A DNA stretch of 40,687 bases from positions 1 to 40,687 of the forward strand of contig JAFRGL010000014.1 of NCBI GenBank assembly GCA_017433825.1, given 5' to 3'. Source of the stretch: Eubacterium sp. Its GTDB lineage: Bacteria; Bacillota; Clostridia; Lachnospirales; Lachnospiraceae. Below, one piece after another: positions 5,672 through 36,262 of the stretch (its first letter is position 1; the number at the start of each line of letters is the position of its first letter). The position numbers were made by a program, and so were the translations under genes. The notes beneath the pieces were generated by a model. The model saw nothing but the letters and a program-made list of their open reading frames with translations, did not search any database and was not told the DNA's origin.

Positions 5672-5747
5672 ACGGTTTTTTTGGAAAGCGGAAAACTGAT
5701 TAAAATGAAATTCCGGCACCGGTATGACGAAAAGGAGAGGCTTTAAG

Positions 5748-6893
5748 TTGAAAGACAGATTCACAGGCTGCATTATCGGCGGGGCTGCAGGAGACGCTCT
5801 GGGCTATCCCGTGGAGTTTTTGGATGACGGGGGCATTGTCAGAAGATACGGCAAAAAGGGAATAAGGAAGTTCGATCTGGAAAACGGCGCTGCTCAGTTT
5901 TCCGATGATACGCAGATGACCCTTTTTACGATGGACGGCATTCGGCAGGGGATAATAAACGCGGAAACCGAAGGCTCCGGTTTCGAACCGGAAGTCTGGA
6001 TATACCGGGCATATCTTGACTGGCTGCAGACCCAGAACGGAAACTGGCAGACATACAAAAACTCCTTTACCGACCTGTACAGGAGCGAGTCCGGCCTGGA
6101 TGCCCGGCGCGCGCCGGGGAATACCTGTCTGTCCGCGCTTCGCGCCCAACAGGGAATCGATATCTTTCGCCCGCAGTTTGGCACCGGAAATCCGGCAAAC
6201 CACAGCAAAGGCTGCGGCGGCGTCATGCGTGTCGCACCGATAGGCCTGATGGTCGATGAAACAAACGCGCTGGGAAGCTGCGGAACAGCGGCAGAAATTG
6301 CTGCGGAAGCTGCGGCAATTACCCACGGGCATCCCTTAGGCTGGCTTCCGGCTGCATTTTTAGGAGGACTCATTAACCGGATCGTCTGGAAAAACGACGG
6401 AAGAACGGACCTGGCAGGCTTTATAGAAAAAACGCGGGAAGACATCAACCGTCAGTTTGCGAAAACGGAATACCTGGAAGATATGGATGCCATCAACAAA
6501 AAAGCGCTGGAAATGGCATATGCGGTGAACAAAACCGTAGGAGAGAACAATCCCGGCCCTCTTTACACCGACTGGGACAACATAGAGGAACTGGGCGGCG
6601 GCTGGGTTGGCGAGGAAGCCCTGGCGATTGCGCTGTACTGCGCCGTGAGGTTCCCGCAGAATTTCCCGGAAGCATTGCGTGCGTCGGTAAATCATTCCGG
6701 CGACAGCGATTCCACAGGCGCAGTGTGCGGAAATATCTTAGGCGCTTATCTGGGATTTGATGAAATCGTCCGACAGATGAAATCGGATACTGAAGACAAC
6801 CTCGTTTTGGAAAGCCTGGAAATGTATGAGAGGCTGATATACTGGACGGAAGCGGCTTATTGTGCAGTTATGACAATCACAAAAGGACAATAA
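5748..6893 (+). CDS. ADP-ribosylglycohydrolase family protein
   Basis: I place the start at the TTG at 5748, because AAAGGAGAGG ends 7 bases before it and family members begin at this point. The in-frame ATG at 5724 has no ribosome site. The 381-residue protein opens with the family signature GGAAGDALGYPVEF (11-24), has the first metal cluster SDDTQM (D53, D54, T55), a GGVMRVAPIGL segment, an HGHPLGW segment and the second metal cluster GDSDSTG (D319, D321, T323). The two magnesium clusters needed to cut ADP-ribose from arginine or serine, or ADP-ribose derivatives, are therefore intact. It lies between a flavin reductase and a 2',3'-cyclic phosphodiesterase. The target is unknown. The two TIR loci in the window make a link with ADP-ribose products worth testing. 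Confidence 0.92.
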   Translation: MKDRFTGCIIGGAAGDALGYPVEFLDDGGIVRRYGKKGIRKFDLENGAAQFSDDTQMTLFTMDGIRQGIINAETEGSGFEPEVWIYRAYLDWLQTQNGNWQTYKNSFTDLYRSESGLDARRAPGNTCLSALRAQQGIDIFRPQFGTGNPANHSKGCGGVMRVAPIGLMVDETNALGSCGTAAEIAAEAAAITHGHPLGWLPAAFLGGLINRIVWKNDGRTDLAGFIEKTREDINRQFAKTEYLEDMDAINKKALEMAYAVNKTVGENNPGPLYTDWDNIEELGGGWVGEEALAIALYCAVRFPQNFPEALRASVNHSGDSDSTGAVCGNILGAYLGFDEIVRQMKSDTEDNLVLESLEMYERLIYWTEAAYCAVMTITKGQ

Positions 6894-6921
6894 TCCCAGT
6901 CTTGAAAGGATATGGACCGCC

Positions 6922-7413
6922 ATGAGACTGTTTATCGCAATCAGGCTGACCGACGAACTGCAGTCGGTGCTGGCCGAAACCATGCATCTTTTAAAAAAAG
7001 CGGGGGTAAAGGGAAGTTACGCGCCTAAGCAGAACCTGCATCTGACGCTGGCTTTCCTGGGTGAAGTACAGGACCCGGAAGCGGTGCGTGAAGTTTTAGG
7101 CAGGATAAAATACAAGCCATTCCGGCTGTCCTTTTCGGAAACAGGGGCCTTCGGGGACATTGTCTGGGCCGGCATAAAAGGAAACCAGGGGCTTGCCGCG
7201 GCGGTTAAAGATATCCGCGCGGCACTGGATGCCGCCGGGATCGGTTACGACCGGAAGAAGTTCGTACCGCACATTACGCTGATACGGAAAGCCGCAGGGA
7301 AATGGCAGGCAGTTCCGGCGCCGAAAGGGGATATGATGGTAAAAAGCATTTCCCTGATGAAATCCGACGTTAGGGACGGGAAACGTGTTTATACGGAACT
7401 GTTTTCAATATGA
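6922..7413 (+). CDS. thpR: RNA 2',3'-cyclic 3'-phosphodiesterase (LigT/ThpR type)
   Basis: This 163-residue protein of the 2H phosphoesterase superfamily has both catalytic HxT motifs: H40-L-T42 (NLHLTLAFLG) and H117-I-T119 (VPHITLIRK). It also has the family start MRLFIAI. The family opens 2',3'-cyclic phosphate ends of RNA to 2'-phosphates and was first known for a reverse tRNA half ligation. It is full length for the family. It follows the ADP-ribosylglycohydrolase by 28 bases, and its stop overlaps the long form of the next open frame. An RtcB ligase that uses the same RNA ends lies 5.6 kb downstream. Confidence 0.92.
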   Translation: MRLFIAIRLTDELQSVLAETMHLLKKAGVKGSYAPKQNLHLTLAFLGEVQDPEAVREVLGRIKYKPFRLSFSETGAFGDIVWAGIKGNQGLAAAVKDIRAALDAAGIGYDRKKFVPHITLIRKAAGKWQAVPAPKGDMMVKSISLMKSDVRDGKRVYTELFSI

Positions 7414-7451
7414 TAACGCAAATACGGCAATACGCCTTGAAAGGAGAAATT

Positions 7452-7853
7452 ATGGAGAAACTAATCACAGGCATCCATCACGCAACCCTTAAGTGCAGCA
7501 GCGTGGAAGAGTTTGAAAAGACAGTACGTTTTTACAGCGAAACCCTCGGTATGGAAATCGTCCGCACCTGGGGGGAAGGCGCTTTTGCCGGCATTATGCT
7601 GAACACAGGCGACGGCTCCCTGATGGAGATTTTCGCAAATGCGGAAAGCAGGCTTCCCCAGGGCGCCATAAGGCATCTTGCCTTAAGGACCGGCGACGTG
7701 GATGCCGCGGTGGAAGCCGTCCGGAAAGCCGGATATGAGATCACCGATGAACCGAAAGACATCGTCATTCCCTCAGAAGTTCCCTTCCCCGCCAGGGTGG
7801 CATTTGCCATCGGCCCGGTCGGAGAAGAAATCGAGTTCTTCTGCGAGAAATAG
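7452..7853 (+). CDS. VOC family protein (glyoxalase/dioxygenase fold)
   Basis: The start is the ATG at 7452, preceded by AAAGGAG. An in-frame ATG at 7410 overlaps the thpR stop and has no ribosome site. The 133-residue protein has two beta-alpha-beta-beta-beta halves: GIHHATLKC (8-16) with a likely metal histidine, FYSETLGMEIVRTW, then RHLALRTGDVDAAVEAVRKAGYEI, and an EIEFFCEK end with a metal glutamate. It is a lactoylglutathione-lyase-like VOC protein. The substrate cannot be told. Confidence 0.9.
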   Translation: MEKLITGIHHATLKCSSVEEFEKTVRFYSETLGMEIVRTWGEGAFAGIMLNTGDGSLMEIFANAESRLPQGAIRHLALRTGDVDAAVEAVRKAGYEITDEPKDIVIPSEVPFPARVAFAIGPVGEEIEFFCEK

Positions 7854-7876
7854 GAAGGTACGGTAAAAGCGGTACG

Positions 7877-8161
7877 ATGACCATTTACGAAGCCCTTGAC
7901 GAACTGCAGCGCCGTGCCAGGAAGGAACCGGAAATACGGAACCTCCTGCTGGAGACCAGGAAAGACGCAAGCCCGGTTAAGGCATTCTGCGCGTGCTGCC
8001 GGAAATTAGGCTATCCCGTCTATATGATGGATTTGATCGATGCAGGCGAAGCCGCCTACGCGGCAATGAAAAGAAGCACCAACGGGGGCGGGGAAAATTC
8101 CCCGAAGCTTACCGGGGAGGACGATTTCTATGAATTGTTTTTCGCGGCGCTGGAAGACTGA
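7877..8161 (+). CDS. Small conserved protein, function unknown
   Basis: This 94-residue acidic protein is helical in its first 35 residues (ALDELQRRARKEPEIRNLLL), then has FCACCRKLGYPVYMMDL, a glycine-rich STNGGGENSP loop and a DDFYELFFAAL end. The layout faintly recalls the Nif11-type leader domain, in which a short helical leader ends in a CGY-like or GYP turn, but no modification enzymes lie nearby. I therefore leave it unassigned. It follows the VOC gene by 23 bases and ends before the strong hairpin at 8201-8236. Confidence 0.65.
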   Translation: MTIYEALDELQRRARKEPEIRNLLLETRKDASPVKAFCACCRKLGYPVYMMDLIDAGEAAYAAMKRSTNGGGENSPKLTGEDDFYELFFAALED

Positions 8162-8200
8162 AAAGGTAAGGCGGCAATGATTTTGCCGCACTGTTACAAA

Positions 8201-8236
8201 TAAACGTCACCGGGAGTTAATTCCCGGTGACGTTTA
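8201..8236. terminator. Bidirectional terminator hairpin between convergent genes
   Basis: A perfect 15-bp stem (8201-8215 with 8222-8236) closes on a 6-base loop and is followed by TTCCTTTT on the + strand. The minus-strand TIR gene ends inside it: its stop codon is 8217-8219 in the loop and its last residues (NVTGN) are encoded by the right arm. It would end both the 5120-8161 transcript and the TIR operon. Confidence 0.85.
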
Positions 8237-9101
8237 TTCCTTTTGCGGAGAACAGTTTCTCGTAGAACTCCGCACTGGTTTTGTATTTGTATTTGTGTAT
8301 TGCCTGCAGGCGCATCAGCCGCATGGCCATGCCGGCCGGAAGCTTTGTATCTTCCAGGTAGACCAGCAGACGTTCCTTGCCCAGATCCCTGGCATAGCTG
8401 ACCTCGTCCCTGCAGTTTTGCGACGCCACATAATTTGCGGACAAAAAGGCGATGAAGTAGCTGCATTTGTTGATGTGGCCGGCTATGTTTTCATCCCACT
8501 CCGAAGCAGGGTCGATTCCTTCATCGTACCAGACCCGGAACCCGTTTTTCTGCAGCTCGCAGATAATCTCGAAGACCTTCTGCATATCTTTGTGCGAATA
8601 GCTGATAAAAATGTGCGGTTCATCGCCGTCGTAAGGCTTTTCAGGCTTCCGGCTTTCCGGCACGGCAGAAGAACCGTCCGTACTGCTTCTGCACTTCTCC
8701 ACAAAATCGTCCAGGAACTTTGCCAGGTTTTTCAGGGAAGCGCCTGCACTGATGTCAAACAGAGTTACTTTATCCATGGCAAGAAGCCGGTTGCCGAAAG
8801 GATGCCCGCCCATGCATGTGTCCCCGGCATGAAACCTTATGGCAACGACCGGGATATCACAGGATATGGCATAATCAAGCTCCGCGTCTGCCGAAAGTGA
8901 GCTTGCCAGATCATCGTTCATAAAGGTAATGTAGGCGTCACAGCTTGAAAGCTCTCCCTGGATTTTCACATAGTCCAGTCCGAGCCCGTCATCGCTTGCA
9001 TGCTGCGCATCCATCCAGCGTACACCCTTCTTTTCAAGAGCCTTCTGCACGTCCTGGGCCCTCTTCCAGCCTTTCGCATAGGAACTGATAAAAACTCTCA
9101 T
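8217..9101 (-). CDS. TIR-domain protein with N-terminal TIR-like domain
   Basis: This 294-residue protein has a clear C-terminal TIR domain (about 162-290): strand HIFISYSHKD, a WYDEGIDPASEWDENI segment, and NCRDEVSYA with E233 at the position of the catalytic glutamate of NAD-cleaving TIR domains. The N-terminal 135 residues look like a second, worn TIR fold: MRVFISSYAKG, KALEKKGVRWMD, CDAYITFMNDDL and ADAELDYAIS (E74). A poorly ordered linker (137-160) joins them. It is the last gene of the minus-strand operon, 20 bases after the other TIR gene, with an AAAGGA site. By family it may cleave NAD or signal through ADP-ribose products. No ThsA or sirtuin partner is present. It could also be only an adaptor. 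Confidence 0.9.
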   Translation of the reverse strand: MRVFISSYAKGWKRAQDVQKALEKKGVRWMDAQHASDDGLGLDYVKIQGELSSCDAYITFMNDDLASSLSADAELDYAISCDIPVVAIRFHAGDTCMGGHPFGNRLLAMDKVTLFDISAGASLKNLAKFLDDFVEKCRSSTDGSSAVPESRKPEKPYDGDEPHIFISYSHKDMQKVFEIICELQKNGFRVWYDEGIDPASEWDENIAGHINKCSYFIAFLSANYVASQNCRDEVSYARDLGKERLLVYLEDTKLPAGMAMRLMRLQAIHKYKYKTSAEFYEKLFSAKGINVTGN

Positions 9102-9121
9102 GTCCGTTTTCCTTTCATTGA

Positions 9122-9910
9122 TTACAGCTGTTCATCCCGGCACAAATCGATGTCCTGTGCCGTATCCACTTTATCAAGGAACTGTCTTTTGTCCGTGTAT
9201 TTGTAATAAAAGAGCGCCTGCTTGCGCCCGAACCGCATGGCATAGGCCGGATCCAGTTCCATATCCTCCAGATAGACAGGGAGAATATCCAGGTCCAGTT
9301 CCCTGGCAAAGTAAAGCTCGTCCTTGCAGTTTGTCGATTCGAAATAGTTCTTTGAGAAGAAGGGGATCAGGTAACCGGCGGCTTCGAGATGCGTTGCGAT
9401 ATTGTCATCCCACTCCGTTCCGGGGTCAATGCCCTCGTCAAACCATACCCGGTAGCCATGGCTCTGCAGGATCCGGATAATGGAGAAGACCTTCTGCTTA
9501 TCCTTGTGGGAATAGCTGGCGAAGATATACGGTTTGTCACCGGTATAGGGTATGATTACCGAGACGTCCTTTTGTATCTTTTTTGCTTCCTCCAGGCCGG
9601 CTTCTACCTCTGCAAGCACGCCTTCTGGCGTTACGGTTTCCAGTTCGAACGTCAGCTGGAGGAGGCCGCTTTCTTTGGCTTCCTGCAGTTCTTTCACCAG
9701 CCGGAAGGACTTCCTGGCTGCTTCCGAGTCAAAATACAGAATCATAACAGATTCATGAATCGCATCCGTCACCGCCTGCTGCCAGTTCCCGAAGTAAATG
9801 ATATCCCTGCCGGGAAGCCAGCACGAAAAGCCCGTCTGTTCGAGGAGCTCTACGACAGGCAGGATGGTTTCCCGGTCTATATTGCTGAAACAAATGTATA
9901 AGTCTTTCAT
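9122..9910 (-). CDS. TIR-domain protein with N-terminal TIR-like domain
   Basis: This 262-residue protein has the same plan as its neighbour. A C-terminal TIR domain (about 126-250) has strand YIFASYSHKD, WFDEGIDPGTEWDDNI and NCKDELYFA with E198 at the catalytic position. The N-terminal part (1-115) again begins like a TIR domain (LYICFSNIDRE, LLEQTGFSCWLPGRDI) but lacks a clear catalytic glutamate. The two proteins share motif order and the GIDP-x-x-EWD segment but differ elsewhere, so they are old paralogues and may form a heteromer. The start has an AGGAAG site, and the coiled-coil gene ends 9 bases upstream, indicating translational coupling. Confidence 0.9.
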   Translation of the reverse strand: MKDLYICFSNIDRETILPVVELLEQTGFSCWLPGRDIIYFGNWQQAVTDAIHESVMILYFDSEAARKSFRLVKELQEAKESGLLQLTFELETVTPEGVLAEVEAGLEEAKKIQKDVSVIIPYTGDKPYIFASYSHKDKQKVFSIIRILQSHGYRVWFDEGIDPGTEWDDNIATHLEAAGYLIPFFSKNYFESTNCKDELYFARELDLDILPVYLEDMELDPAYAMRFGRKQALFYYKYTDKRQFLDKVDTAQDIDLCRDEQL

Positions 9911-9919
9911 AACTTCTTC

Positions 9920-10450
9920 CTACTGCCTGTCCTTTGCAATGTCCAGGTTGCTGACCAGGTTTGCTTTCCTGTTTTCCCACTCCTTTTTTGAATCCGCATA
10001 GAAGGCTTCCAGGTTTTTGCTTACCTGCTCTTCCCGTTCCCGCCTCTTTTTTGCGGCTTCGCTGCTGGCCCAGGCGGCGCTTGCTGCATCTGCTTTCTTT
10101 CTGGCTTCCCTGCGGGCTTTATCCGCTTCAGCCTTTTTCCTCTGCTTTTCGAGGATTTCGTCCGCTTCCGCCACGCGCTTTTCCAGCCCGGCCTTCTGCT
10201 TTTCAAAATCTGCTTTCTGCCTTTCAAACTCCGCTTTCTGCTTTTCCAGTTCTTCTTTCTCGTGCTTCTGCCAGGACAGCATCTTTTCGAGAATATGTTT
10301 TCTTTGACAGAAAAGCAGCGCGTCCGAATCAGATGCGCAAACCGGCGAGAGCGTCCTTTTTTCCAGGATGTTTTTATCACGGACGAAGCCGCAGGCGCAT
10401 TCGTGCCTGTTCTCCAGATTCTCTTTTCCGCAGATGATGCATTTCCACAT
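9920..10450 (-). CDS. Zinc-ribbon plus coiled-coil protein of the TIR operon
   Basis: The frame is open further upstream, but the real start is the ATG at 10450, just after AAGAGGG, because a zinc ribbon begins right there. The 176-residue protein has cysteines C4, C7, C18 and C20 (CIIC...CAC), then a long charged helix from about residue 57 to 145. Within it are three heptads with the pattern E-x-Q-K-A (about 69-89) and an alanine/arginine-rich stretch, a coiled coil. It has no membrane segment. As first gene of the operon with the two TIR genes it could be the scaffold or sensor that clusters them. This role is inferred from order and domain type only. Confidence 0.85.
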   Translation of the reverse strand: MWKCIICGKENLENRHECACGFVRDKNILEKRTLSPVCASDSDALLFCQRKHILEKMLSWQKHEKEELEKQKAEFERQKADFEKQKAGLEKRVAEADEILEKQRKKAEADKARREARKKADAASAAWASSEAAKKRREREEQVSKNLEAFYADSKKEWENRKANLVSNLDIAKDRQ

Positions 10451-10656
10451 AATGTTTCCCTCTTGAAAACGGATGGCCGCACGCCTGCTGATTATTTGCC
10501 GCAGGCTTTCCTTTAAGATTAAGATTAACGGAAAACGGCGGAAAATACAAGCCTCATGTTCCTGATACCGGGCAGATTTCGGGACAGTATCGCGAGGTAG
10601 AATAAGGCCAGTACAAGGATAATGGGCCGGTTGCTGCCTGCAGGGGGAAATATAAA
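10451..10656. other. Divergent promoter region of the TIR operon and the nuclease-like gene
   Basis: This 206-base gap separates two divergent units. On the minus strand a TTGTAT box lies 17 bases from a TAATCT box (about 10520-10548), a weak fit to sigma-A. On the plus strand TAGAAT at 10598-10603 could be a -10, without a good -35. A short direct repeat AAGATTAAGATTAA is at 10515-10528. No operator palindrome is evident. Confidence 0.35.
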
Positions 10657-11901
10657 ATGAACGATGATTATCCATATCCGCCAATTCACGAAAAACCGAC
10701 GCAAAGTCTGTCTTTTGAACGGCTTAATATGCTTTGGGAGCGGTACCCGCAGCATCATGAAATGACAACCTTTTCCACCATGGACGAACTGCTTTCTGAA
10801 CACGAATCCTGGAAAGGGGAGTTTGAAGAATTCAGAAAGGAATACGAAGAAGGAGGATATGACCGGTTCCTGGTGCAGCTGTCCTGGTCGGACCTTCCCT
10901 ACCGGTACGCTGCCGGAAAATTAATCGAAAAAGATGGTCCGCTTAAAGCCAATCCGTATACCGAAGCTTTCCTTGGACAGTTTTCCGGGCTGGATACGGA
11001 AAAAAAGGCCTGCTTCCTCTTTCCGGAAAGCTTCGCATCCCGGTTTTTTGTCATTATGGAGGTCTGCAAAAGGGCGGAAATCCTCCGTCCGGTAAAAAAT
11101 CTTTTCCCGGACGAGGAAAAGATGCATTATCTGGCCGTTTTTGATAAAATGGATATGGACAGCATCCTTTTGATGTACCACCTGCTTTATACAAATGCCG
11201 CGGAGGATTTGTACGGGGGCTATTTCCTGTATGATTATTCCCTTTCCTGGTACCAGACGCACCTGCAGGAAAAAGGTACGGTGCTTCGGTCGCCGTATCT
11301 TCCGGACCGGCTTGCGAGATACCAGGGGAACCTGCCAAGGCATTTCAATCCGGTAAAAACCGTCCATGTCCGGCAAAACATCCGGCATATCCTGGAAAAC
11401 GGCTGGTTTTCATCGGAACTGGAATTCTTCCGGAACCTGACGGAAATCATCATGCCGCTTTTCCAGTGGTGGTATACGGATTTGGCTATGTACGAGGAAA
11501 AAGACGGCTTTCGTACCAACTGGCGGCTGGAAAGGACGAAAATCAGGACGAAGCTTACGGCGGAGGGGATTATAAAGCCGAAATGGAAGCATGAGCTGTC
11601 ATTGTTCTATGCAGTGCAAAAACTGTATCCCGATACCCTGTACCAGCATCGTCCGCAGTGGCTGGGCCGGCAAAGCCTGGATTTGTATATCCCTTCCATC
11701 AGGACGGCAATAGAATACCAGGGGGTCCAGCATTATCTGCCCGTGCCCTTTTTCGGCGGGGAAGACGCTTTAAGCAGGCGTCAGGAACTGGACAGGCAGA
11801 AAAGACAGCTTTGTGAAGAAAACCGCGTCCGCTTTATCGAATGGCCCTATCACATTGAACCGACAAAGGAAAACATACTGGCTGAGCTGGCCTGTGACTA
11901 G
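10657..11901 (+). CDS. Protein with C-terminal PD-(D/E)XK-like nuclease domain
   Basis: This 414-residue protein has an uncharacterised N-terminal two thirds, mostly helical and rich in aromatic residues, and a C-terminal domain (about 305-410) with restriction-endonuclease-like motifs. These are SLDLYIP with D342, then IEYQGVQHY with E353, Q355 and H359, followed by FFGGEDAL and a basic helix. This matches the D...E-x-(K/Q) core of the PD-(D/E)XK superfamily as in small very-short-patch-repair-like domains. It could cut DNA. The start follows CAGGGGGAAA. It is divergent from the zinc-ribbon/TIR operon and 6 bases from the phosphoesterase gene. What the N-terminal part binds is not known. Confidence 0.8.
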   Translation: MNDDYPYPPIHEKPTQSLSFERLNMLWERYPQHHEMTTFSTMDELLSEHESWKGEFEEFRKEYEEGGYDRFLVQLSWSDLPYRYAAGKLIEKDGPLKANPYTEAFLGQFSGLDTEKKACFLFPESFASRFFVIMEVCKRAEILRPVKNLFPDEEKMHYLAVFDKMDMDSILLMYHLLYTNAAEDLYGGYFLYDYSLSWYQTHLQEKGTVLRSPYLPDRLARYQGNLPRHFNPVKTVHVRQNIRHILENGWFSSELEFFRNLTEIIMPLFQWWYTDLAMYEEKDGFRTNWRLERTKIRTKLTAEGIIKPKWKHELSLFYAVQKLYPDTLYQHRPQWLGRQSLDLYIPSIRTAIEYQGVQHYLPVPFFGGEDALSRRQELDRQKRQLCEENRVRFIEWPYHIEPTKENILAELACD

Positions 11902-11907
11902 TGTATA

Positions 11908-12618
11908 ATGAAAATACTTGTAATCCCTGATGTGCATCTGAAACCGTGGATGTTTGAGCGCGCATCGGCGTTAATGAAAAAGAATAAAGCGCAGCGTGCG
12001 GTCTGTCTTATGGACATCGCTGATGACTGGCGGCAGCAGTACAACCTCGACCTCTATATGCAGACGTATGACGCTGCGATAAAGTTCGCAAAAGATTTTC
12101 CGGATACGCTGTGGTGTTACGGGAACCACGACTTAAGCTATCTGTGGCAGAAGAAGGAATCCGGGTATTCCCCGGTTGCACCCCGGATTGTCTGTGAAAA
12201 ACTGCGTATTTTGAGGGAAACGCTTCCCGATGAACGGCAGCTTGCCTTTCTGCACCGTATCGACAGTGTTTTGTTTTCCCACGGCGGGCTTTCTGACGAA
12301 TTCGTAATGGAATATGTTCCCGGGACATATTATAATGATGCTGACGCAGTAATAGAAACGATTAACGGCTTCGGCCCTGCTGAAATGTGGCAGGATTTAT
12401 CACCCATATGGTACAGGCCCCAGTATTATCCGGGAGAAATGTACGGTTCCGGGAAACTCTTACAGGCTGTCGGCCATACGCCGGTGAAAGACATAATTAA
12501 AGAGGGAAATGTTATTTCCTGCGACGTTTTTTCAACAGACAGTAACCGGAAGCCTTTAGGAACACAAAAGTTTCCGGTAATCGATACGGTGACAGGGGAC
12601 TGCTGCGGGCTTGTTTAG
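11908..12618 (+). CDS. Calcineurin-like metallophosphoesterase
   Basis: This 236-residue protein has the dimetal phosphoesterase motifs D8-x-H10 (IPDVHLK), the second-metal segment LMDIADDW (D36; Met replaces the usual Gly of GDxxD), GNHD (N73, H74), a later H125 (FSHGGL) and GHTPV. It is thus likely active on phosphomonoesters, nucleotides or nucleic acid. The start lies 6 bases after the stop of the nuclease-like gene and has no separate ribosome site, which argues for translational coupling and a shared job. The alternatives are a Ser/Thr phosphatase-like enzyme or a dinucleoside tetraphosphatase. Confidence 0.87.
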   Translation: MKILVIPDVHLKPWMFERASALMKKNKAQRAVCLMDIADDWRQQYNLDLYMQTYDAAIKFAKDFPDTLWCYGNHDLSYLWQKKESGYSPVAPRIVCEKLRILRETLPDERQLAFLHRIDSVLFSHGGLSDEFVMEYVPGTYYNDADAVIETINGFGPAEMWQDLSPIWYRPQYYPGEMYGSGKLLQAVGHTPVKDIIKEGNVISCDVFSTDSNRKPLGTQKFPVIDTVTGDCCGLV

Positions 12619-12639
12619 TTAAAGAAAGGGTTCAAAAAC

Positions 12640-12966
12640 ATGTTGTCATCTGCATTTACCATTCCTGCGAAGAATACGATTGCCAAAGGGGAGGATCTGA
12701 ACCTTTTGGGCGGCATCGTAAACCGGTCGGAAGAAGCGGTCACTGCGGTTATCCGCGTATGGGCGAGGCTTTCCGGCGAATGGAAGCCGGTTCTTTCAAA
12801 GGAAGAAGAAATTGCGGCAGGAGAGCATAAGCATGTGTATTACACCCTTCCGTTTGCTGCTCTTGAAGATGCCTTTCCCGGGGAAGATCTGGAAGAAGTG
12901 GAAGTATATATATCCGATTGTATGCCGGATGCGAAGACAAACGGTGAACTGATATTAGTGGACTGA
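12640..12966 (+). CDS. Small beta-rich protein, function unknown
   Basis: This 108-residue protein alternates short beta-type strands (TAVIRVWARLSG, KHVYYTLPFAAL, EEVEVYISDC) and has a GGIVNRSEEAV turn early on, so it looks like a small immunoglobulin-like sandwich. It has no signal peptide. It lies 21 bases after the phosphoesterase gene behind AAAGAAAGGG and probably closes that unit. I recognise no family. Confidence 0.65.
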   Translation: MLSSAFTIPAKNTIAKGEDLNLLGGIVNRSEEAVTAVIRVWARLSGEWKPVLSKEEEIAAGEHKHVYYTLPFAALEDAFPGEDLEEVEVYISDCMPDAKTNGELILVD

Positions 12967-13014
12967 CCGAAACTATAAGAAGGCAAAATTACATAAAGAA
13001 GACAGGAAAAACCA

Positions 13015-14268
13015 ATGTTTGAAATAAAAGGAAAAATTACAACCGCGGTATGCTACGCAACCGTCATAGAGGACGCCGCGATAGAGCAGATTCAGAAAAT
13101 GTGCGATTACGCGCTTACGGAAGGCTCCCTGGTACGCATCATGCCGGACGTGCATGCAGGTGCCGGGTGCACCGTCGGAATGACCATGACCGTTGCGGAT
13201 AAAGCCTGCCCGAACATCGTCGGCGTGGATATCGGCTGCGGGATGTACACCGTGAAACTGAATGACAGAAGGCTTGATTTCGAAAAAATCGATGAAGCTG
13301 CCCATTTCATCCCCTCCGGCATGAATACCTGGGAGGAAGCCGCTGAAAAATTCGACCTTGCGGGGCTGAAATGTTTCGGCAGCTTAACCGGCATCGGAAG
13401 GCTGGAATGTTCCCTGGGAACCCTAGGCGGCGGAAACCATTTCATTGAGATAGACAAAGCCGCAAACGGTGATTATTATCTGATAATCCATTCCGGAAGC
13501 AGGAATCTGGGAAAACAGGTGGCGGAGTATTATCAGAAGCTTGCCATTGACCTGCATGCGGGCAGGGAGGATTACCTGCGCAGAAGAAATGAAATCATTA
13601 AGACATATAAAGAAGAAGGCAGGCAATCCGAAATACAGTCTGCTTTGAATGCACTGGATAAAGAGTACAAAGAGAAAACGCCGGACGTGCCGGATGATAT
13701 CTGCTGGCTGTACGGCACTTCCTTTAAAGACTACCTGCACGATGTGGAAATCTGCCAGCGCTTTGCGAAAAGAAGCCGCGAGATAATGGCGGATATTATC
13801 CTGCGAAGGACCGGCATGACGGCAGATGAAAGCTTCCATACCATCCACAATTACATCGACACAAGCGAAATGATTCTCCGCAAAGGCGCGATTGCCGCGC
13901 ATAAAGGCGAAAAAGTCCTGATCCCCATCAATATGCGGGACGGTTCCGTCATTGCCGTGGGCAAAGGGAATCCGGAATGGAATTTTTCCGCGCCTCACGG
14001 CGCCGGCCGCCTGATGTCCAGGAGCAAGGCAAAGGCGGCAATAGACCTGGAAGCCTACAAGGCTGCAATGGAAGGCATCTATACGACCTCCGTAAACGAG
14101 AACACCCTGGACGAGGCGCCTATGGCATATAAATCCATAGACGATATCATAGACGTTATAAAGGAAACCGTAGACATACTGGAGGTCATGAAACCGGTAT
14201 ATAACTTCAAGGCGTCCGAAGACGAACTTCCCTGGAAGAAAAAAGCAGCTGTTCCGAAAGAGGACTGA
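13015..14268 (+). CDS. rtcB: RtcB-type RNA ligase
   Basis: This 417-residue protein has all core RtcB signatures: MPDVHAGAGCTVG (H47), GVDIGCGM (D72, metal ligand C75), LGGGNHFIEI (N141, H142), IHSGSRNLG (H159) and SAPHGAGR with the guanylated H328. RtcB joins RNA 2',3'-cyclic phosphate (or 3'-phosphate) ends to 5'-OH ends using GTP and manganese, repairing cut tRNA or rRNA. The length matches the family, and nothing is missing. There is no archease or RtcA gene next to it and no sigma-54 regulator as in enterobacteria. The neighbour MntP, a manganese exporter, is 1 kb downstream. Confidence 0.95.
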   Translation: MFEIKGKITTAVCYATVIEDAAIEQIQKMCDYALTEGSLVRIMPDVHAGAGCTVGMTMTVADKACPNIVGVDIGCGMYTVKLNDRRLDFEKIDEAAHFIPSGMNTWEEAAEKFDLAGLKCFGSLTGIGRLECSLGTLGGGNHFIEIDKAANGDYYLIIHSGSRNLGKQVAEYYQKLAIDLHAGREDYLRRRNEIIKTYKEEGRQSEIQSALNALDKEYKEKTPDVPDDICWLYGTSFKDYLHDVEICQRFAKRSREIMADIILRRTGMTADESFHTIHNYIDTSEMILRKGAIAAHKGEKVLIPINMRDGSVIAVGKGNPEWNFSAPHGAGRLMSRSKAKAAIDLEAYKAAMEGIYTTSVNENTLDEAPMAYKSIDDIIDVIKETVDILEVMKPVYNFKASEDELPWKKKAAVPKED

Positions 14269-14301
14269 AAAACACGGCAGACATAAAGGGGGTCAGAAGC
14301 C

Positions 14302-15357
14302 ATGAGAAAAATACTTCTTGTAATCGACATGCAGAATGACTTCATTGACGGCGCTTTGGGCACGCCGGAAGCAGAGGCAGTCGTGGAAAATGTGAAGGAC
14401 AAAATCCGCTCTTATCCGGCAGAAGACATATTTGTGACAATGGATACGCACGGCGATGACTATATGGATACCCAGGAAGGGAAATACCTTCCGGTGCCGC
14501 ACTGCATCCGCGGTACGAAAGGGTGGGAAATCAGACCGGACATCAAAGAATTACTGACAGGGGCCCACGTTTACGAAAAGCCGACGTTCGGAAGCACCCT
14601 TCTTGCGGAGGATCTGAAAGCGCTTTCCGAAACGGAAGAAATCGAGCTGGAGCTTGCCGGAGTCTGCACGGATATCTGCGTGGTATCCAATGCGCTTCTT
14701 TTAAAAGCGGCGATGCCGGAGGTTAAGCTCAGCGTGGATGCTTCCTGCTGTGCGGGCGTTACGCCGCAGAAACACAAGGCCGCCCTGGAGACCATGAAGT
14801 CCTGCCAGATACAGGTAAGGGAAGAGCATGGCACGGTGGTTCTGCGGACAAAGCGGCTTACCCTGCGAAAATACCGCCCGGAAGACGCGGATATTATTTA
14901 TCGGTATTTCGGAACTGATCCTGACATGGTCCGGTACTCCGGCTGGAATCCGTATGCGACCCTGGAAATGGCACGGGAAACCGTGAACAGGTACATAGAA
15001 AGCTATGGGGATGAGCATTTCTACGGCTGGGCGATAGAAGCGGACGGTGCTTTTGCCGGAACAATAGGAGCCTATGACTTCGAAAATGACCGGATAGAAA
15101 TCGGCTACAGTATCGTGAAGGATTTCTGGGGGCTGGGATATGCGGCCGAAGCGCTGGAGAAAGTGCTGGGACACCTGACGGAAAACGAAGGCATTTCCTG
15201 CGTGACTGCCTGGTGCGCTGCGGAAAACACAGGTTCCCGAAAAGTGCTTGAAAAGGCGGGAATGAAACTGGTCAGCATTGAAAAAGACGGCCTTGCGGTC
15301 GGAGACAGGATATACGATAAATTAAACTATGAATACACTCGGACCCTTTATCATTAA
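14302..15357 (+). CDS. Fusion: isochorismatase/nicotinamidase-like domain with GNAT acetyltransferase
   Basis: This 351-residue protein joins two enzymes. Residues 1-172 are a cysteine hydrolase: D9 (VIDMQNDF), K93 (YEKPTFGS) and C126 (GVCTDICVVSNA) form the triad, and D48, H50 and H67 match the metal site of nicotinamidases. Residues about 178-350 are a RimJ/RimL-type GNAT acetyltransferase (LTLRKYRPEDADIIYRYF, FWGLGYAAEAL as the acetyl-CoA loop, NTGSRKVLEKAGM). If the first half is a nicotinamidase it would recycle nicotinamide released from NAD. The joint at 170-180 carries no stop or gap. The end overlaps mntP by 29 bases. The start follows a GGGGGTCAG site. Confidence 0.9.
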   Translation: MRKILLVIDMQNDFIDGALGTPEAEAVVENVKDKIRSYPAEDIFVTMDTHGDDYMDTQEGKYLPVPHCIRGTKGWEIRPDIKELLTGAHVYEKPTFGSTLLAEDLKALSETEEIELELAGVCTDICVVSNALLLKAAMPEVKLSVDASCCAGVTPQKHKAALETMKSCQIQVREEHGTVVLRTKRLTLRKYRPEDADIIYRYFGTDPDMVRYSGWNPYATLEMARETVNRYIESYGDEHFYGWAIEADGAFAGTIGAYDFENDRIEIGYSIVKDFWGLGYAAEALEKVLGHLTENEGISCVTAWCAAENTGSRKVLEKAGMKLVSIEKDGLAVGDRIYDKLNYEYTRTLYH

Positions 15358-15919
15358 CAGTATTCTTTTAGGCGTGGGCCTGGCGATGGACGCCTTTTCG
15401 GTGTCGATGGCCAACGGGCTTAACGCGCCGAAGATGTCCCGCGGCATGAAAACGGTTATTCCGCTTACATTTGCATCGTTCCAGTTCCTGATGCCTGTGA
15501 TCGGCTGGATCTGCGTGAGGGGCATTGCGGAGGAATTCACCGCTTTCCAGAAGGCCATACCCTGGATTGCGCTGGGACTACTCGTGTTCATCGGCGGTAA
15601 AATGTGCTTTGAAGGCATCCGCGGCGGTGAAACGGAAAGTTCAAACCTCACACTGAAGCCCGGCGCGCTGCTGATACAGGGCGTGGCAACCTCCATCGAC
15701 GCTTTGTCTGTGGGCTTTACCATCGCAGAATACCATACCGCGCAGGCTTTATCTGCCGGCATCATCATCGGCGGGGTAACCTTTGTCATCTGTTCTGCCG
15801 GCCTTCGCATCGGCCAGCGCTTCGGCACGCGTCTTGCCGGGAAAGCGTCCATATTAGGCGGCGTCATCCTCATCGGCATCGGCATTGAAATTTTCGTCAC
15901 CGGCATCTTCGGCGGCTGA
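15329..15919 (+). CDS. mntP: Manganese efflux pump MntP
   Basis: This 196-residue inner-membrane protein has six hydrophobic segments in two homologous halves. Each half carries an acidic motif: GLAMDAFSVS with D21 and ATSIDALSVG with D124, the residues on the manganese path in MntP. It exports Mn(II) when the metal is in excess. The start lies inside the end of the isochorismatase-GNAT gene (29-base overlap), with no strong ribosome site, so translation is probably coupled. No yybP-ykoY manganese riboswitch can be present directly upstream, because that region is coding. Confidence 0.93.
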   Translation: MNTLGPFIINSILLGVGLAMDAFSVSMANGLNAPKMSRGMKTVIPLTFASFQFLMPVIGWICVRGIAEEFTAFQKAIPWIALGLLVFIGGKMCFEGIRGGETESSNLTLKPGALLIQGVATSIDALSVGFTIAEYHTAQALSAGIIIGGVTFVICSAGLRIGQRFGTRLAGKASILGGVILIGIGIEIFVTGIFGG

Positions 15920-30362: not shown

Positions 30363-30422
30363 TTGATTGAAATTCGGCATAATATAAAAAAGCCGTAAAT
30401 AAATAAAATGCAGGTGGTTCAG

Positions 30423-31010
30423 ATGGCATACACAGAAATGCTCCCTGAAGGGCAGAAAATCTTTTCCATGCAGGAACTTAAAAGCAAAGGCCTTTCACAA
30501 TATAAAGTCCATAAACTCGTCAGTGAAGGCAGACTTATCAAACTGAATAAAAGCTATTATGAAAATGCAGATTATTGCGGGGAGGAGTCTGACTTCTATT
30601 TTACAGAGGCGTATGCACCGGAAGGCGTGATATGTCTGCTTAGTGCAGCAGCTTATTACAATCTGACAACCTTTATTCCGGATGCAGTTGATGTGGCAAT
30701 ACCGAGGAAGGCAAAAGTATCAACTCTGCCATCCTGGCCTCAGATGAATATCCATCATTTTACTGATGCAAGGCATGAGCTGGGCGTTACAACAGTTACT
30801 GAAGGAAAAAATGGTTTTCTCATTTATGATATGGAAAAAACCGTGGTTGATATAGTGTTTTACAGAGAGAAGGTCGGGATCGAAGAAACAAAGGAAATTC
30901 TGGTGACTTATCTCAAGCGCAGGGACCGCAACCTGAACCGGCTTCTAAAATATGCAGAGCTCATGAAATGCGGTAAAATAATGCGGCAATATCTGGAGGT
31001 GCTTGTATGA
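30423..31010 (+). CDS. abiEi: AbiEi-type antitoxin / transcriptional regulator
   Basis: This 195-residue protein starts at 30423, where GCAGGTGG is 5 bases upstream (an ATG at 30408 lies before that site). The N-terminal winged helix is IFSMQELKSKGLSQYKVHKLVSEGRLIKLNKSYYEN, as in AbiEi, followed by a C-terminal antitoxin domain with FYREKVGIEETKEILVTYLKRRDRNL. In type IV systems AbiEi counteracts the nucleotidyltransferase without binding it and represses the operon through inverted repeats. The gene overlaps the toxin gene by 4 bases. Base use is more A+T-rich than in neighbours, a sign of transfer. Confidence 0.88.
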   Translation: MAYTEMLPEGQKIFSMQELKSKGLSQYKVHKLVSEGRLIKLNKSYYENADYCGEESDFYFTEAYAPEGVICLLSAAAYYNLTTFIPDAVDVAIPRKAKVSTLPSWPQMNIHHFTDARHELGVTTVTEGKNGFLIYDMEKTVVDIVFYREKVGIEETKEILVTYLKRRDRNLNRLLKYAELMKCGKIMRQYLEVLV

Positions 31011-31903
31011 TTAGCGCCAAATCGGTGAAGGACAGATTGAAGAACAAGGCTCTTACAGGCGGAAAGTCGATGCAGGAAATATTGATCGCATATGGGTTGG
31101 AGAGAACAGTCTACAGGCTTTCAACATCAGAGTATAAAAAGAGTTTTACACTAAAAGGCGGTATATTCATGTATGCTCTGTTTGGAGGAAAATATCCAAG
31201 AGCCACAAGAGATCTGGACTTATTGGCAAGGAATGTGCATAATAGTGAAGAAAATATAAAGAAGATTTTCGAAATAATCTTCTCTGTCGAATGCGATGAC
31301 GCGCTTAAATATGATCTGGCTACCTTAGAAGTCAGAACAATAACGGAGTTCAAGAAATACCACGGTGTTAATGTATCTATAGTGACTTATCTGGACAGAA
31401 CCAGAATCCCGATTTCCATCGATATCGGATTTGATGATGTGGTTTATCCGGACAGAGTGAAAATGGAGTTCCCGGTATTGCTTGACACAGAAGCCCCAGA
31501 GATTTATGTGTATTCAATTACTTCAGTGATCTCTGAAAAGTTTGAGGCAATAGTTTTATTAGGGAATGCAAACAGCAGATATAAGGACTTTTATGATATA
31601 TACATACTCGCCAATAGTTATGATATTGATGGTGAAGAATTAAAAGAATCAGTTGATGAAACTTTCAGGCACAGAGAAACAAGTTTTGATGATATTTTCG
31701 CTTTCACAGATGATTTTGTAACAAGCGAAATCCATCAGAGAAGATGGAAAGCTTTTATGGATAAGAAGAAGGTGATGGTATGTGCAGAACTAAAAGATGT
31801 TGTGAATCTGTTGCGGAAGCTATTGTTTCCGGTTGTTGATAGTATACGAAGCGGTATGCAGTATACTGCAAAGTGGGATCATGAATCCCGGAGTTGGATA
31901 TAA
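31007..31903 (+). CDS. abiEii: AbiEii/AbiGii-type nucleotidyltransferase toxin
   Basis: This 298-residue protein has the DNA polymerase beta-type nucleotidyltransferase core: LKGGIFMYALFG (49-60) and RATRDLDLL with metal ligands D69 and D71. A later SIDIGFDD strand (third acid) and an EKFEAIVLLGNANSRYKDFYDIYIL helix are typical of AbiEii. The family modifies tRNA or other acceptors and stops growth, giving phage abortive infection in lactococci. ATGA overlap with the antitoxin confirms coupling. It appears intact. Confidence 0.9.
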   Translation: MISAKSVKDRLKNKALTGGKSMQEILIAYGLERTVYRLSTSEYKKSFTLKGGIFMYALFGGKYPRATRDLDLLARNVHNSEENIKKIFEIIFSVECDDALKYDLATLEVRTITEFKKYHGVNVSIVTYLDRTRIPISIDIGFDDVVYPDRVKMEFPVLLDTEAPEIYVYSITSVISEKFEAIVLLGNANSRYKDFYDIYILANSYDIDGEELKESVDETFRHRETSFDDIFAFTDDFVTSEIHQRRWKAFMDKKKVMVCAELKDVVNLLRKLLFPVVDSIRSGMQYTAKWDHESRSWI

Positions 31904-32459: not shown

Positions 32460-34244
32460 TCAGTCAAGACCGCATGCTTTTCTTATACGCTTGTCGTAAT
32501 AATCTATCCTTTCCAGGTTGTATTTAACCCTGCTTCTGTAATACTCCATTCTTTCGGCACAGTAGGCAGGCCGGGACTCTTTTTCTCTTTCATATATTTT
32601 CAGACATTCTTTTTCAACCTTGTCCAAATTAAAAACATTTTGTTTCATTTCGATGAAACAATCATCCACGTTCATGCTTCTGTTATCCGGCAGGGGGTAA
32701 TGCTCTTCATTCAAAGCGTAGTAAAACAGTTTGCAGTATCTTTCTGCCTCCTTTTGTTCCATGCCATAATTTTTCATTATCAGGTTAACAGCGCCTGCCT
32801 GGTCATTATTGTCAAAACAGTCTGATATACCCTGCATTGTCAGCGGAACCGGTGAAAATGAAGAATTGGCCAGATCCTCCTTCTTTTTCTCTTCAAACAT
32901 CCTGTCTACCGCGGCCTTACCGTCTGCCAGTCCGGCACCGGTCTGTTCGCGGTAGTATTTAATGGCTTTTATCGGGCTGTCAGAAAAATGCTCAAGAATA
33001 TAGTTTTTCAATGCCTGATAGCTGCTTCCTGCAGCATTTCCGCTTCCGGAAGATACTGCCGTCTGGCCGGCAGGTTTCTGTTCCGTTTCAAAAATGGCAT
33101 CTACGGCATGTACCGCCGTGCGTAAATCCGCCCCGGTCTGTTCACGGTAATATTTTACGGCTTTTATCTTGGTATTGCTGTTGAAGTTTCTCCTGATGTA
33201 TTCTTCCACATTTCCGGAACCGGCCTGCAAAACAGCCGGATTCTGCGCAGGAATGCTGCCGGATACCCGGGAAGCCTGACTGCCGCCGGCCTGCAGTCCG
33301 GCAAGTTTCCGTTCCAGTTCCTTAATGTAATCTTCCCTGCTCTGCGCTTTGCTGCCGATCAGTTTCTCAATACCACGCAGCAAGTCCTGGACGGCTCCGA
33401 TTTTCCCCATATCCTGTGCCTGCAGGCGCCGGAATTCGGATGGCATATCGTAAGCGTCGATATCCCTGTAACAGGGGATAAGGAATTTCTGCGGGTCGTT
33501 CTGCATCAGCATCAGGTAACGGCTCCACTCGTTTTTAACCCAGACTGCATTGAAGTATTCATAATCGGTACCGAATACCAGCATGACCTTAGCCGAATTC
33601 AATGCCGCGAAAATATAAGGTTCATATTCCTGTCCCAGCTTGTCTTCAAGGCTGACGCGTGAGAAGAACACCCGGTATCCTTTCCGGGTAAGCGCGTCAT
33701 ATACATCCTGCGCGATTACACTGTCCAGTGTACGATTGCCGGAATCGTCTGTTTCCTTGTATGAGATGAAAATATCGTAAGGTTCTTCTTTTGCCGAAAC
33801 GCTTAAGATTCCTTCGCGAATCCGTTCGATTTCCTTCGCTTCTTCCCGGTACAGCCTTCGGGAATCCGGATCCGCATATTCCATGGCCATCTCAAAATCC
33901 CCGTCGGAAAGCACTTCCTTATAAGACAGTCTGTGGCAGGTGGGGATTTTTCTTCCCGTCCCGGGGTCATCTACATATTCAATGCCGTATCTGCACAGGA
34001 CAATACCCCAGTAGCCTTCGGCTTCCGACGGAAATTCGGAAACAATACTCTCATAAACAGCAGCCGCTTTGTCAAACTCATGGTTTGAAAACAGACGCTG
34101 TGCCCTGTTGAAAAGATTCGTCTTTTTTTCATTATCGTCGGCAGGTACTGTCTGCCGGGTGCCGCAGTATTCGCATTCTCCGATATTGCCGGCCGGCTCC
34201 ATCAAAAGGCTGCCGCCGCATCTTCTGCATTTAAAAACAGACAT
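32460..34244 (-). CDS. Zinc-ribbon / TIR protein with L7/L12-like repeats
   Basis: This 594-residue protein has an N-terminal zinc ribbon (C6, C9, C24, C27), a short TPR-like pair of helices (about 44-90), and a TIR domain (about 155-300) with YDIFISYKETDD, RKGYRVFFSRVSLED and E239 in WVKNEWSRYLML at the catalytic position. A linker follows, and then two repeats like the ribosomal L7/L12 C-terminal domain: KIKAVKYYREQTGADL (about 359-374) and PIKAIKYYREQTGAGL (about 424-439). The C-terminal 130 residues have no recognised fold. It lies 21 bases downstream of the SPFH gene. The TIR part may cleave NAD, and the ribbon and repeats suggest docking to a partner. Confidence 0.9.
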   Translation of the reverse strand: MSVFKCRRCGGSLLMEPAGNIGECEYCGTRQTVPADDNEKKTNLFNRAQRLFSNHEFDKAAAVYESIVSEFPSEAEGYWGIVLCRYGIEYVDDPGTGRKIPTCHRLSYKEVLSDGDFEMAMEYADPDSRRLYREEAKEIERIREGILSVSAKEEPYDIFISYKETDDSGNRTLDSVIAQDVYDALTRKGYRVFFSRVSLEDKLGQEYEPYIFAALNSAKVMLVFGTDYEYFNAVWVKNEWSRYLMLMQNDPQKFLIPCYRDIDAYDMPSEFRRLQAQDMGKIGAVQDLLRGIEKLIGSKAQSREDYIKELERKLAGLQAGGSQASRVSGSIPAQNPAVLQAGSGNVEEYIRRNFNSNTKIKAVKYYREQTGADLRTAVHAVDAIFETEQKPAGQTAVSSGSGNAAGSSYQALKNYILEHFSDSPIKAIKYYREQTGAGLADGKAAVDRMFEEKKKEDLANSSFSPVPLTMQGISDCFDNNDQAGAVNLIMKNYGMEQKEAERYCKLFYYALNEEHYPLPDNRSMNVDDCFIEMKQNVFNLDKVEKECLKIYEREKESRPAYCAERMEYYRSRVKYNLERIDYYDKRIRKACGLD

Positions 34245-36026: not shown

Positions 36027-36116
36027 GTCAAGGCTCCTTTCGTGTTCCGGTTGTTTATTATGCTGATAGATCAGTGAAAAGTTTACCGTAAAGCCGGAAA
36101 AAAGACAAGGTTTACT

Positions 36117-36149
36117 TTCCCGGGAGTGATTGTTACAATGACCTGGGAA
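36117..36149. promoter_or_regulatory. Imperfect dyad in the SPFH / P-ATPase divergent region
   Basis: TTCCCGGG (36117-36124) and CCTGGGAA (36142-36149) are near-complementary, around a central TTGTTACAA palindrome. It lies in the 236-base gap between the two divergent genes and could be an operator. No clear -35/-10 pair was found. Confidence 0.35.
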
Positions 36150-36262
36150 TAAGGAATTACAGACTGAAGCAGTTGGCGCTTTTGGGTCAAAGCCGTCCTT
36201 CTTTGTCCTAAAAAGGATGACATTTAAAGGCGCATCCTTCTGCCCGGAGAGAAAGGAGACAC

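Follow-up and report, generated by a model that had tools for sequence, protein, structure and literature searches.

TIR domains are modules of many NAD-destroying immune enzymes. In type I Thoeris of Staphylococcus aureus, as described in PMC12578639, ThsB1 that has bound the capsid brings in ThsB2 and enhances the cyclase activity of the latter; two different TIR proteins are encoded together there, one of which senses and one of which is the enzyme. Cat1, a CARF-TIR protein of type III CRISPR, has an NADase site lined by S7, D33, and E74 (excerpts of PMC12162218), and SLATT has been predicted to be a membrane effector regulated by ADP-ribose (ADPr) derivatives in TIR/SLATT neighbourhoods (portions of PMC9503650). 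Here we describe two adjacent genes, TIRa and TIRb, on a 40,687-nt stretch of Eubacterium sp. DNA (the window, to which all positions refer), which is the whole of contig C13 of a 2.6 Mb genome in 25 contigs. As judged from sequence comparison, TIRa and TIRb are a co-inherited double-TIR pair. Five other genomes of uncultured bacteria have a similar pair of neighbouring genes, which suggests an alarm against viruses that consists of two parts.

TIRa (9122..9910, minus strand, 262 aa) and TIRb (8217..9101, minus strand, 294 aa) are the two partners, and each is a tandem TIR-TIR protein whose second, N-terminal TIR was overlooked in an earlier note on this DNA. According to Pfam TIR_2 (cut-off 28), which matches two stretches in each protein, they score 109.4 and 95.9 bits, respectively. 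In TIRa the N-terminal TIR spans residues about 4-93 (9632-9901, with the E74 codon at 9689-9691) and the C-terminal TIR residues 119-247 (9170-9556, E198 codon at 9317-9319). In TIRb a TIR-like N-terminal domain, the most variable part, spans residues 3-95 (8817-9095), followed by a C-terminal TIR at residues 154-282 (8256-8642, E233 codon at 8403-8405). Scanned alone, the N-domain of TIRa reaches 35.6 bits and is over the TIR_2 cut-off, and that of TIRb reaches 22.9 bits and is under it. The N-domains of TIRb-type relatives range from 55.1, 42.2, and 39.6 bits in three proteins to 13.2 and 15.1 in two, and that of locus L063 gives no TIR_2 match when scanned alone. ThsB_TIR of Pfam (cut-off 21.2) matches TIRb with 21.7 bits and the N-domains of two TIRb-type relatives with 29.7 and 23.8 bits. 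Foldseek matches also include unrelated Rossmann-type proteins, and the TIRb list has BcmB and DNPH1, which are nucleotide N-glycosidase-type enzymes.

The GTDB species genomes were scanned with a TIR alignment, and of the 557 relatives the best 80, ranked with TIRa as the reference, were kept; solitary TIRb genes may lie among the relatives beyond these 80. Labels such as L062 denote loci, and G001, G003, and G087 are other genomes, the first two of the same genus. Full-length TIRa relatives occur in 5 of the best 80 loci, namely L062, L063, L064, and L065 (66%, 66%, 52%, and 44% identity, respectively) and L066 (40% in the best segment, 43% in a second comparison), which come from uncultured Clostridiales (two), Lachnospiraceae, Oscillospiraceae (water buffalo rumen), and Mogibacterium (sheep colon). 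A TIRb-type gene directly adjoins the TIRa relative in all five, and L062 has two pairs in a row, which gives seven pairs including that of the window. The order within the pair flips between loci and the adjacency is kept, so the earlier claim that the two TIR genes form a unit stands.

Whole-length and N-domain models were built from the pair members themselves. Each whole-length model matches 103 open reading frames (ORFs) in 85 loci, and by best full-length score 7 are TIRa-type and 7 TIRb-type; all 14 stand in pairs, with three TIRb-type proteins and one TIRa-type protein also matching the other model at a lower score. The N-domain models give 145-172 bits for pair members and at most 44 (L131) and 43 (L133) for ORFs outside pairs. 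L068, L069, L081, and L118 have wide query ranges in the scan, but with the whole-length models nothing beyond a C-type TIR is matched in these loci (L069 has two). No TIR ORF was called in 6 of the 80 loci (L073, L076, L083, L108, L111, and L127), where the scan matches cover the C-domain only, and a few loci are duplicates of one genomic site (such as L045/L075 and L046/L105).

In a tree of 79 C-domains (14 from pairs and 65 others exceeding 140 bits and 110 residues, the rest being dropped), the seven TIRa sequences form one clade with support 0.90 and the seven TIRb sequences another with support of only 0.56. Both split alike, into the window, the first pair of L062, L063, and L064 on one side and the second pair of L062, L065, and L066 on the other (supports 0.96-0.995). 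The distances among TIRa and among TIRb proteins correlate with r 0.87 over the seven pairs, a value reached in 9 of 5040 permutations; taken by part, the correlation is 0.74 for N-parts (67/5040) and 0.79 for C-parts (24/5040). Identity between members is 14-34% in the N-part of TIRb and 56-82% in its C-part, and 25-71% and 38-76%, respectively, in TIRa, where both N-part figures include the linker. Such variability of the TIRb N-part would fit a sensor that evolves in an arms race.

As for the active site, a HMMER alignment places TIRa S132, D158, and E198 opposite Cat1 S7, D33, and E74. The Cat1 variants N10A, D33A, S68A, E74A, K121A, and Y122A are all defective in vivo, and the in vitro reports give partial loss for D33A and complete loss for Y122A (in the sections of PMC12162218 considered here). 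E198 is kept in 7/7 TIRa-type and E233 in 7/7 TIRb-type proteins, and the N-domain glutamate, E74 in both TIRa and TIRb, is likewise kept in 7/7 of each type. The catalytic glutamate and pocket residues of the NADase-type TIR fold are thus present in the pair at the level of aligned residues, and from these kept residues the NAD loss proposed in the earlier note appears chemically plausible.

In comparison with described TIR systems, no close match to a named one was found in PADLOC or NCBIfam, in agreement with the earlier note, which called this a candidate new TIR system. The best PADLOC ThsB match of the window proteins is only 1.9e-7 (TIRb), and the curated ThsB models are not clearly reached. 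Thoeris_type3_ThcB4 of NCBIfam (NF058526) matches the TIR of TIRa at the same place, residues 129-220 on profile positions 130-223, with 32.8 bits, which is far under the curated cut-off of 220. The pair resembles ThsB1/ThsB2 in that two different TIR proteins are encoded together; in contrast to that system, both proteins are TIR-TIR tandems and no ThsA was identified, since Pfam finds none of the SIR2-SLOG, TM-SLOG, or macro type among the ten genes of 5724-15357 (LigT-like genes at 6922-7413 and 7410-7853 are named by eye only). A search of the window's own genome for STALD (PF18185) gave no match, but the control was silent too. Cat1 is the best solved-structure sequence match of the C-terminal TIR; however, no CARF domain is seen, and the second domain of the pair proteins is another TIR. 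Unlike the TIR-APAZ protein of SPARTA and SARM1, the pair has no APAZ/Argonaute, ARM, or SAM domains according to Pfam. The pair would work like the two-TIR sensor/enzyme core of Thoeris, yet it fails the defining Thoeris features tested. No description of paired TIR-TIR proteins or of a ribbon/coil TIR system was found in a search of mostly open literature with partial coverage, which is weak evidence; the phrase "two TIR domains" occurs in, e.g., PMC12847820 and PMC11364022, outside what this negative covers, and "tandem TIR" in PMC13142454 concerns an amoeba protein as far as the available text goes.

The neighbours of the relatives suggest what the pair may act through. In L063 a SLOG/DUF4231-like gene lies 36 bases after TIRb (DUF4231 24.2 bits against a cut-off of 24.7, SLOG-type matches weaker), followed by a RyR-like gene (18.5 against 27.4). 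Two more TIR-bearing genes precede the pair there, one with TIR_2 over the cut-off, and the six genes of L063:2096-11484 read TIR-TIR-TPR, phosphatase-TIR, TIRa, TIRb, SLOG/DUF4231-like, and RyR-like. This cluster looks like a rich ADP-ribose signalling locus. DUF4231 we take to correspond to SLATT, and the L063 arrangement, with the pair upstream of the two genes, recalls TIR/SLATT neighbourhoods; at the window locus, in contrast, no SLOG/DUF4231-like or RyR-like gene is seen. In L066 a KAP NTPase gene lies 30 bases after TIRb (43.8 bits against a cut-off of 20; PADLOC candidate PDC-S49, 3.8e-34), and TIRb of that locus matches SAVED_TIR (4.6e-16) and Aga_TIR (4.3e-13) of PADLOC more strongly than the window proteins do, although through TIR domains only. 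Inspection of the neighbours by eye gave no evident partner in L064 and L065, and the clostripain-family gene upstream in L062 is probably unrelated. Effector use thus seems variable between loci.

Taken together, we give roughly an even chance to the explanation that TIRa and TIRb each supply one half of an immune module that consumes NAD+ by means of TIR domains and is similar to ThsB1/ThsB2 of Thoeris, as far as sequence can tell. The divergent N-terminal TIR of each half would serve assembly or sensing, and the canonical C-terminal TIR would hold the NADase site. On infection TIRb, which has the most variable N-domain, may bind a phage cue and assemble with TIRa, after which the C-terminal TIRs would cleave NAD+. 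By analogy with S. aureus Thoeris, sensing is probably the task of one TIR protein, and catalysis that of its partner or of both. Given the variable effector use across loci, the output could be either direct NAD+ exhaustion or a signal of the ADP-ribose type to which an effector particular to the locus responds, such as the SLOG/2TM-like protein of L063. A bolder form, which we consider rather unlikely, is an undescribed type of TIR immunity in which two interlocking double-TIR proteins form a hetero-assembly of four glutamate-keeping TIRs, with composite active sites that would arise only once a phage cue is bound by the rapidly evolving, TIR-like domain with which TIRb senses, and in which the same core would have outputs differing by host (direct NAD+ loss, a SLOG/2TM pore, a KAP NTPase, and perhaps ZnCC, a zinc-ribbon/coil protein encoded next to TIRa in the window). 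TIR immune systems differ mainly in how the TIR is switched on. A pair in which one protein has a markedly variable domain would be a small testable model of how TIR-TIR hetero-assembly could bring about activation and of the reuse of one sensor core with different effectors.

Several observations weigh against an immune module of this kind. Many TIR domains are non-enzymatic adaptors, and TLRs and MyD88 are among the TIR matches. Neighbouring TIR genes are not rare (at least two TIR ORFs in 11 of the 75 other kept loci), nor is tandem TIR unique to the pair: L069 encodes a TIR-TIR-membrane protein, and gene calling gave no other TIR gene at that locus. The distance correlation would be expected from plain vertical inheritance too, and it rests on seven pairs. 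Full-length matches are found in the window's own genome only among 392 genomes of the order, 397 of the family, and 391 of the class, with at most six candidates scored per genome; any match within the limits set occurs in 14, 14, and 7 of them, respectively, own genome included, the others through the C-domain. With five loci elsewhere, the pair is therefore rare but scattered over several families. TIRa has no match at E 1e-10 in 72,556 plasmid records and one partial match (42% coverage) in 50,697 phage records. No recognisable effector adjoins the pair in three of the five relatives (L062, L064, and L065), and those of the other two differ. Finally, the window offers no strong defence-island setting, and its AbiEi/AbiEii-like toxin-antitoxin pair (30408-31903, plus strand; PADLOC 1.7e-94 and 3.2e-88) is 20 kb off.

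Thoeris-type signalling with the effector elsewhere in the genome, where the pair would make a cyclic ADP-ribose and a SLOG or membrane effector encoded far away would be switched on by it, is possible but doubtful: the SLOG/2TM-like gene so close after TIRb in L063, the ThsB_TIR matches over the cut-off in TIRb and two TIRb-type N-domains, and the two-TIR sensors known in type I Thoeris (from what is available of PMC12578639) agree with it, whereas the weak PADLOC ThsB matches do not. An equally tentative idea is that the TIRs form a non-enzymatic scaffold or take part in phage-unrelated signalling, the pair being an expansion in a TIR-rich genome. That genome does have 12 TIR_2 matches, 11 of them over the cut-off, and at least 557 relatives of the C-TIR subfamily occur across species genomes, the best 80 of which carry a wide variety of attachments; scaffolds, however, need not keep the catalytic-site glutamate, and all four TIR domains keep it in every pair member.

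The earlier note proposed a different part list, in which ZnCC nucleates the TIR pair and ZnCC, TIRa, and TIRb, perhaps with a divergent nuclease-like gene, form the functional system; we regard this as distinctly improbable. ZnCC (9920..10450, minus strand, 176 aa) has a zinc-ribbon-like N-terminus of the form CX2C-X10-CXC followed by a charged coil-like rest, belongs to no Pfam family, and keeps C4, C7, C18, and C20 in 6/6 aligned relatives. Its position on the same strand, 9 bases from TIRa, suggests co-transcription in this genome, and the combination of ribbon and TIR recurs in cis, in two other TIR proteins of the own genome that start with a zinc-ribbon-like CxxC...CxxC (window 32460-34244 and L177) and in the TM2-ribbon-TIR proteins of L092 and L116 (Zn_Ribbon_TF 22.7 and 19.7 of 29 bits, below the cut-off). 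However, ZnCC accompanies the pair in 0/5 loci, and its profile has no match outside the window among 764 ORFs from 85 loci, of which the 80 kept from the scan extend up to 6 kb to each side of the TIR match. Only 2 of 98 genomes searched have ZnCC, the own one and G001 (94% complete), whose ortholog, the best one with 54% identity, has no TIR gene beside it; G001 also gave no match to TIRa or TIRb among 2 and 3 scored candidates, respectively. Among 397 family genomes the ZnCC profile matches in 4, own included, the other three being other ribbon proteins with RCC1-, Sel1-, or MORN-like repeats by eye. The own-genome paralogues of ZnCC stand at the end of an operon that also encodes two AAA proteins and a HerA-type ATPase and has no TIR matches, and by eye G001 seems to have the same operon. 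The absence from the pair loci and the lone G001 ortholog led us to reject ZnCC as a core member; it lies outside the conserved unit and is at most a local accessory in the window genome. The earlier note would have counted rare co-occurrence of the three genes as a refutation, and such rarity is seen for the trio with ZnCC and not for the TIR pair.

The divergent gene fares no better as a member. It encodes a 414-aa protein (10657..11901, plus strand) whose PD-(D/E)XK label comes from inspection of a motif by eye alone: the protein has no Pfam, PADLOC, or NCBIfam family and no solved-structure sequence match up to E 1, and D342, E353, Q355, and H359 are conserved in 4/4. The gene 6 bases downstream (11908..12618, plus strand) does encode a phosphoesterase, as previously named (Pfam Metallophos, 28.8 bits against a cut-off of 21.5). 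Any match to the 414-aa protein occurs in 8 of the 98 genomes, own included, with full-length orthologs in G003, G001, and G087 (74%, 70%, and 59%). None of these three stands beside TIR genes, as the 19.5 kb around them has no match to the window TIRs or the phosphoesterase. Both genes are therefore judged to lie outside the system, and a system of three genes plus nuclease is not supported. The module explanation takes the divergent gene for a bystander; in this one genome it may have a local accessory role. With the part list so corrected, tests designed around the zinc-ribbon gene or the nuclease-like one would probably be spent on bystanders.

Regarding the locus itself, the ORFs of ZnCC, TIRa, TIRb, and the divergent gene are all present where the earlier note placed them, as are the gaps of 20 bases between TIRb and TIRa, 9 between TIRa and ZnCC, and 206 between ZnCC and the divergent gene. 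A purine-rich stretch resembling a ribosome-binding site precedes the ATG of all three minus-strand genes by eye, and a codon-usage score retains the four frames, with ZnCC alone outside the training set. Operon GC is 0.508 against 0.497 for the window, and in third-position GC (GC3) none of the three genes departs by more than one standard deviation (sd) from 30 window genes, so that base composition does not point to a recent arrival of the operon. The divergent intergenic region (10451..10656, 206 bases) is the presumed promoter region of the operon, with no consensus promoter-like site listed inside it. A palindrome over the TIRb stop codon (8199..8238) may be a bidirectional terminator common to the convergent plus-strand gene, and it is absent from the listed terminator-like sites of the window. 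Promoter-like sites number 4 against 2.3 (sd 1.4) in shuffles, and terminator-like sites 4 against 3.7. Scans of viral contigs yielded no relative for TIRa, ZnCC, or the TIRa alignment and a single partial C-domain relative for the TIRb alignment. An argument from shared neighbourhood or empty sites was dropped, as in G001 and G003 the region 5700-15400 is spread in pieces over several contigs.

ZnCC-like proteins also occur in other settings. The operon of L021:1-10892 (own genome, C4), with L022 of the same genus by eye, has an AAA ATPase (PF00004, 94 bits), a second AAA protein (26 bits), a HerA-type ATPase with cysteine clusters, family-less helical proteins, and two ZnCC-like proteins with membrane segments. 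In L020:9414-15281 (G001) the ZnCC ortholog lies near WYL/WCX-like regulators (one match under and one just over the cut-off), a TROVE/Ro-like protein by eye, and RtcB, and ZnCC is less than 5 kb from RtcB in both the window and G001.

Other TIR proteins show further combinations. The zinc-ribbon-like TIR protein at 32460-34244 (minus strand) has an L7/L12 C-terminal-like domain, with a similar protein again at L177, and adjoins a SPFH/zinc-ribbon protein at 34266-36284 (minus strand). A C-type TIR follows a tubulin/FtsZ-like stretch in L087:5518-6555 (19.8 bits, cut-off 33); in L092:1374-2360 and L116:5515-6477 it comes after a TM2 domain and a zinc ribbon. Finally, L005:9142-14260 (own genome, C12) has three adjacent genes that by eye each start with a TIR or degenerate TIR-like domain followed by a transmembrane-like segment; the third (1020 aa) has leucine-rich repeats (LRRs) and the other two have LRR-like ends by eye, a layout of N-terminal TIR, membrane segment, and C-terminal LRR that resembles a Toll-like receptor in reverse.

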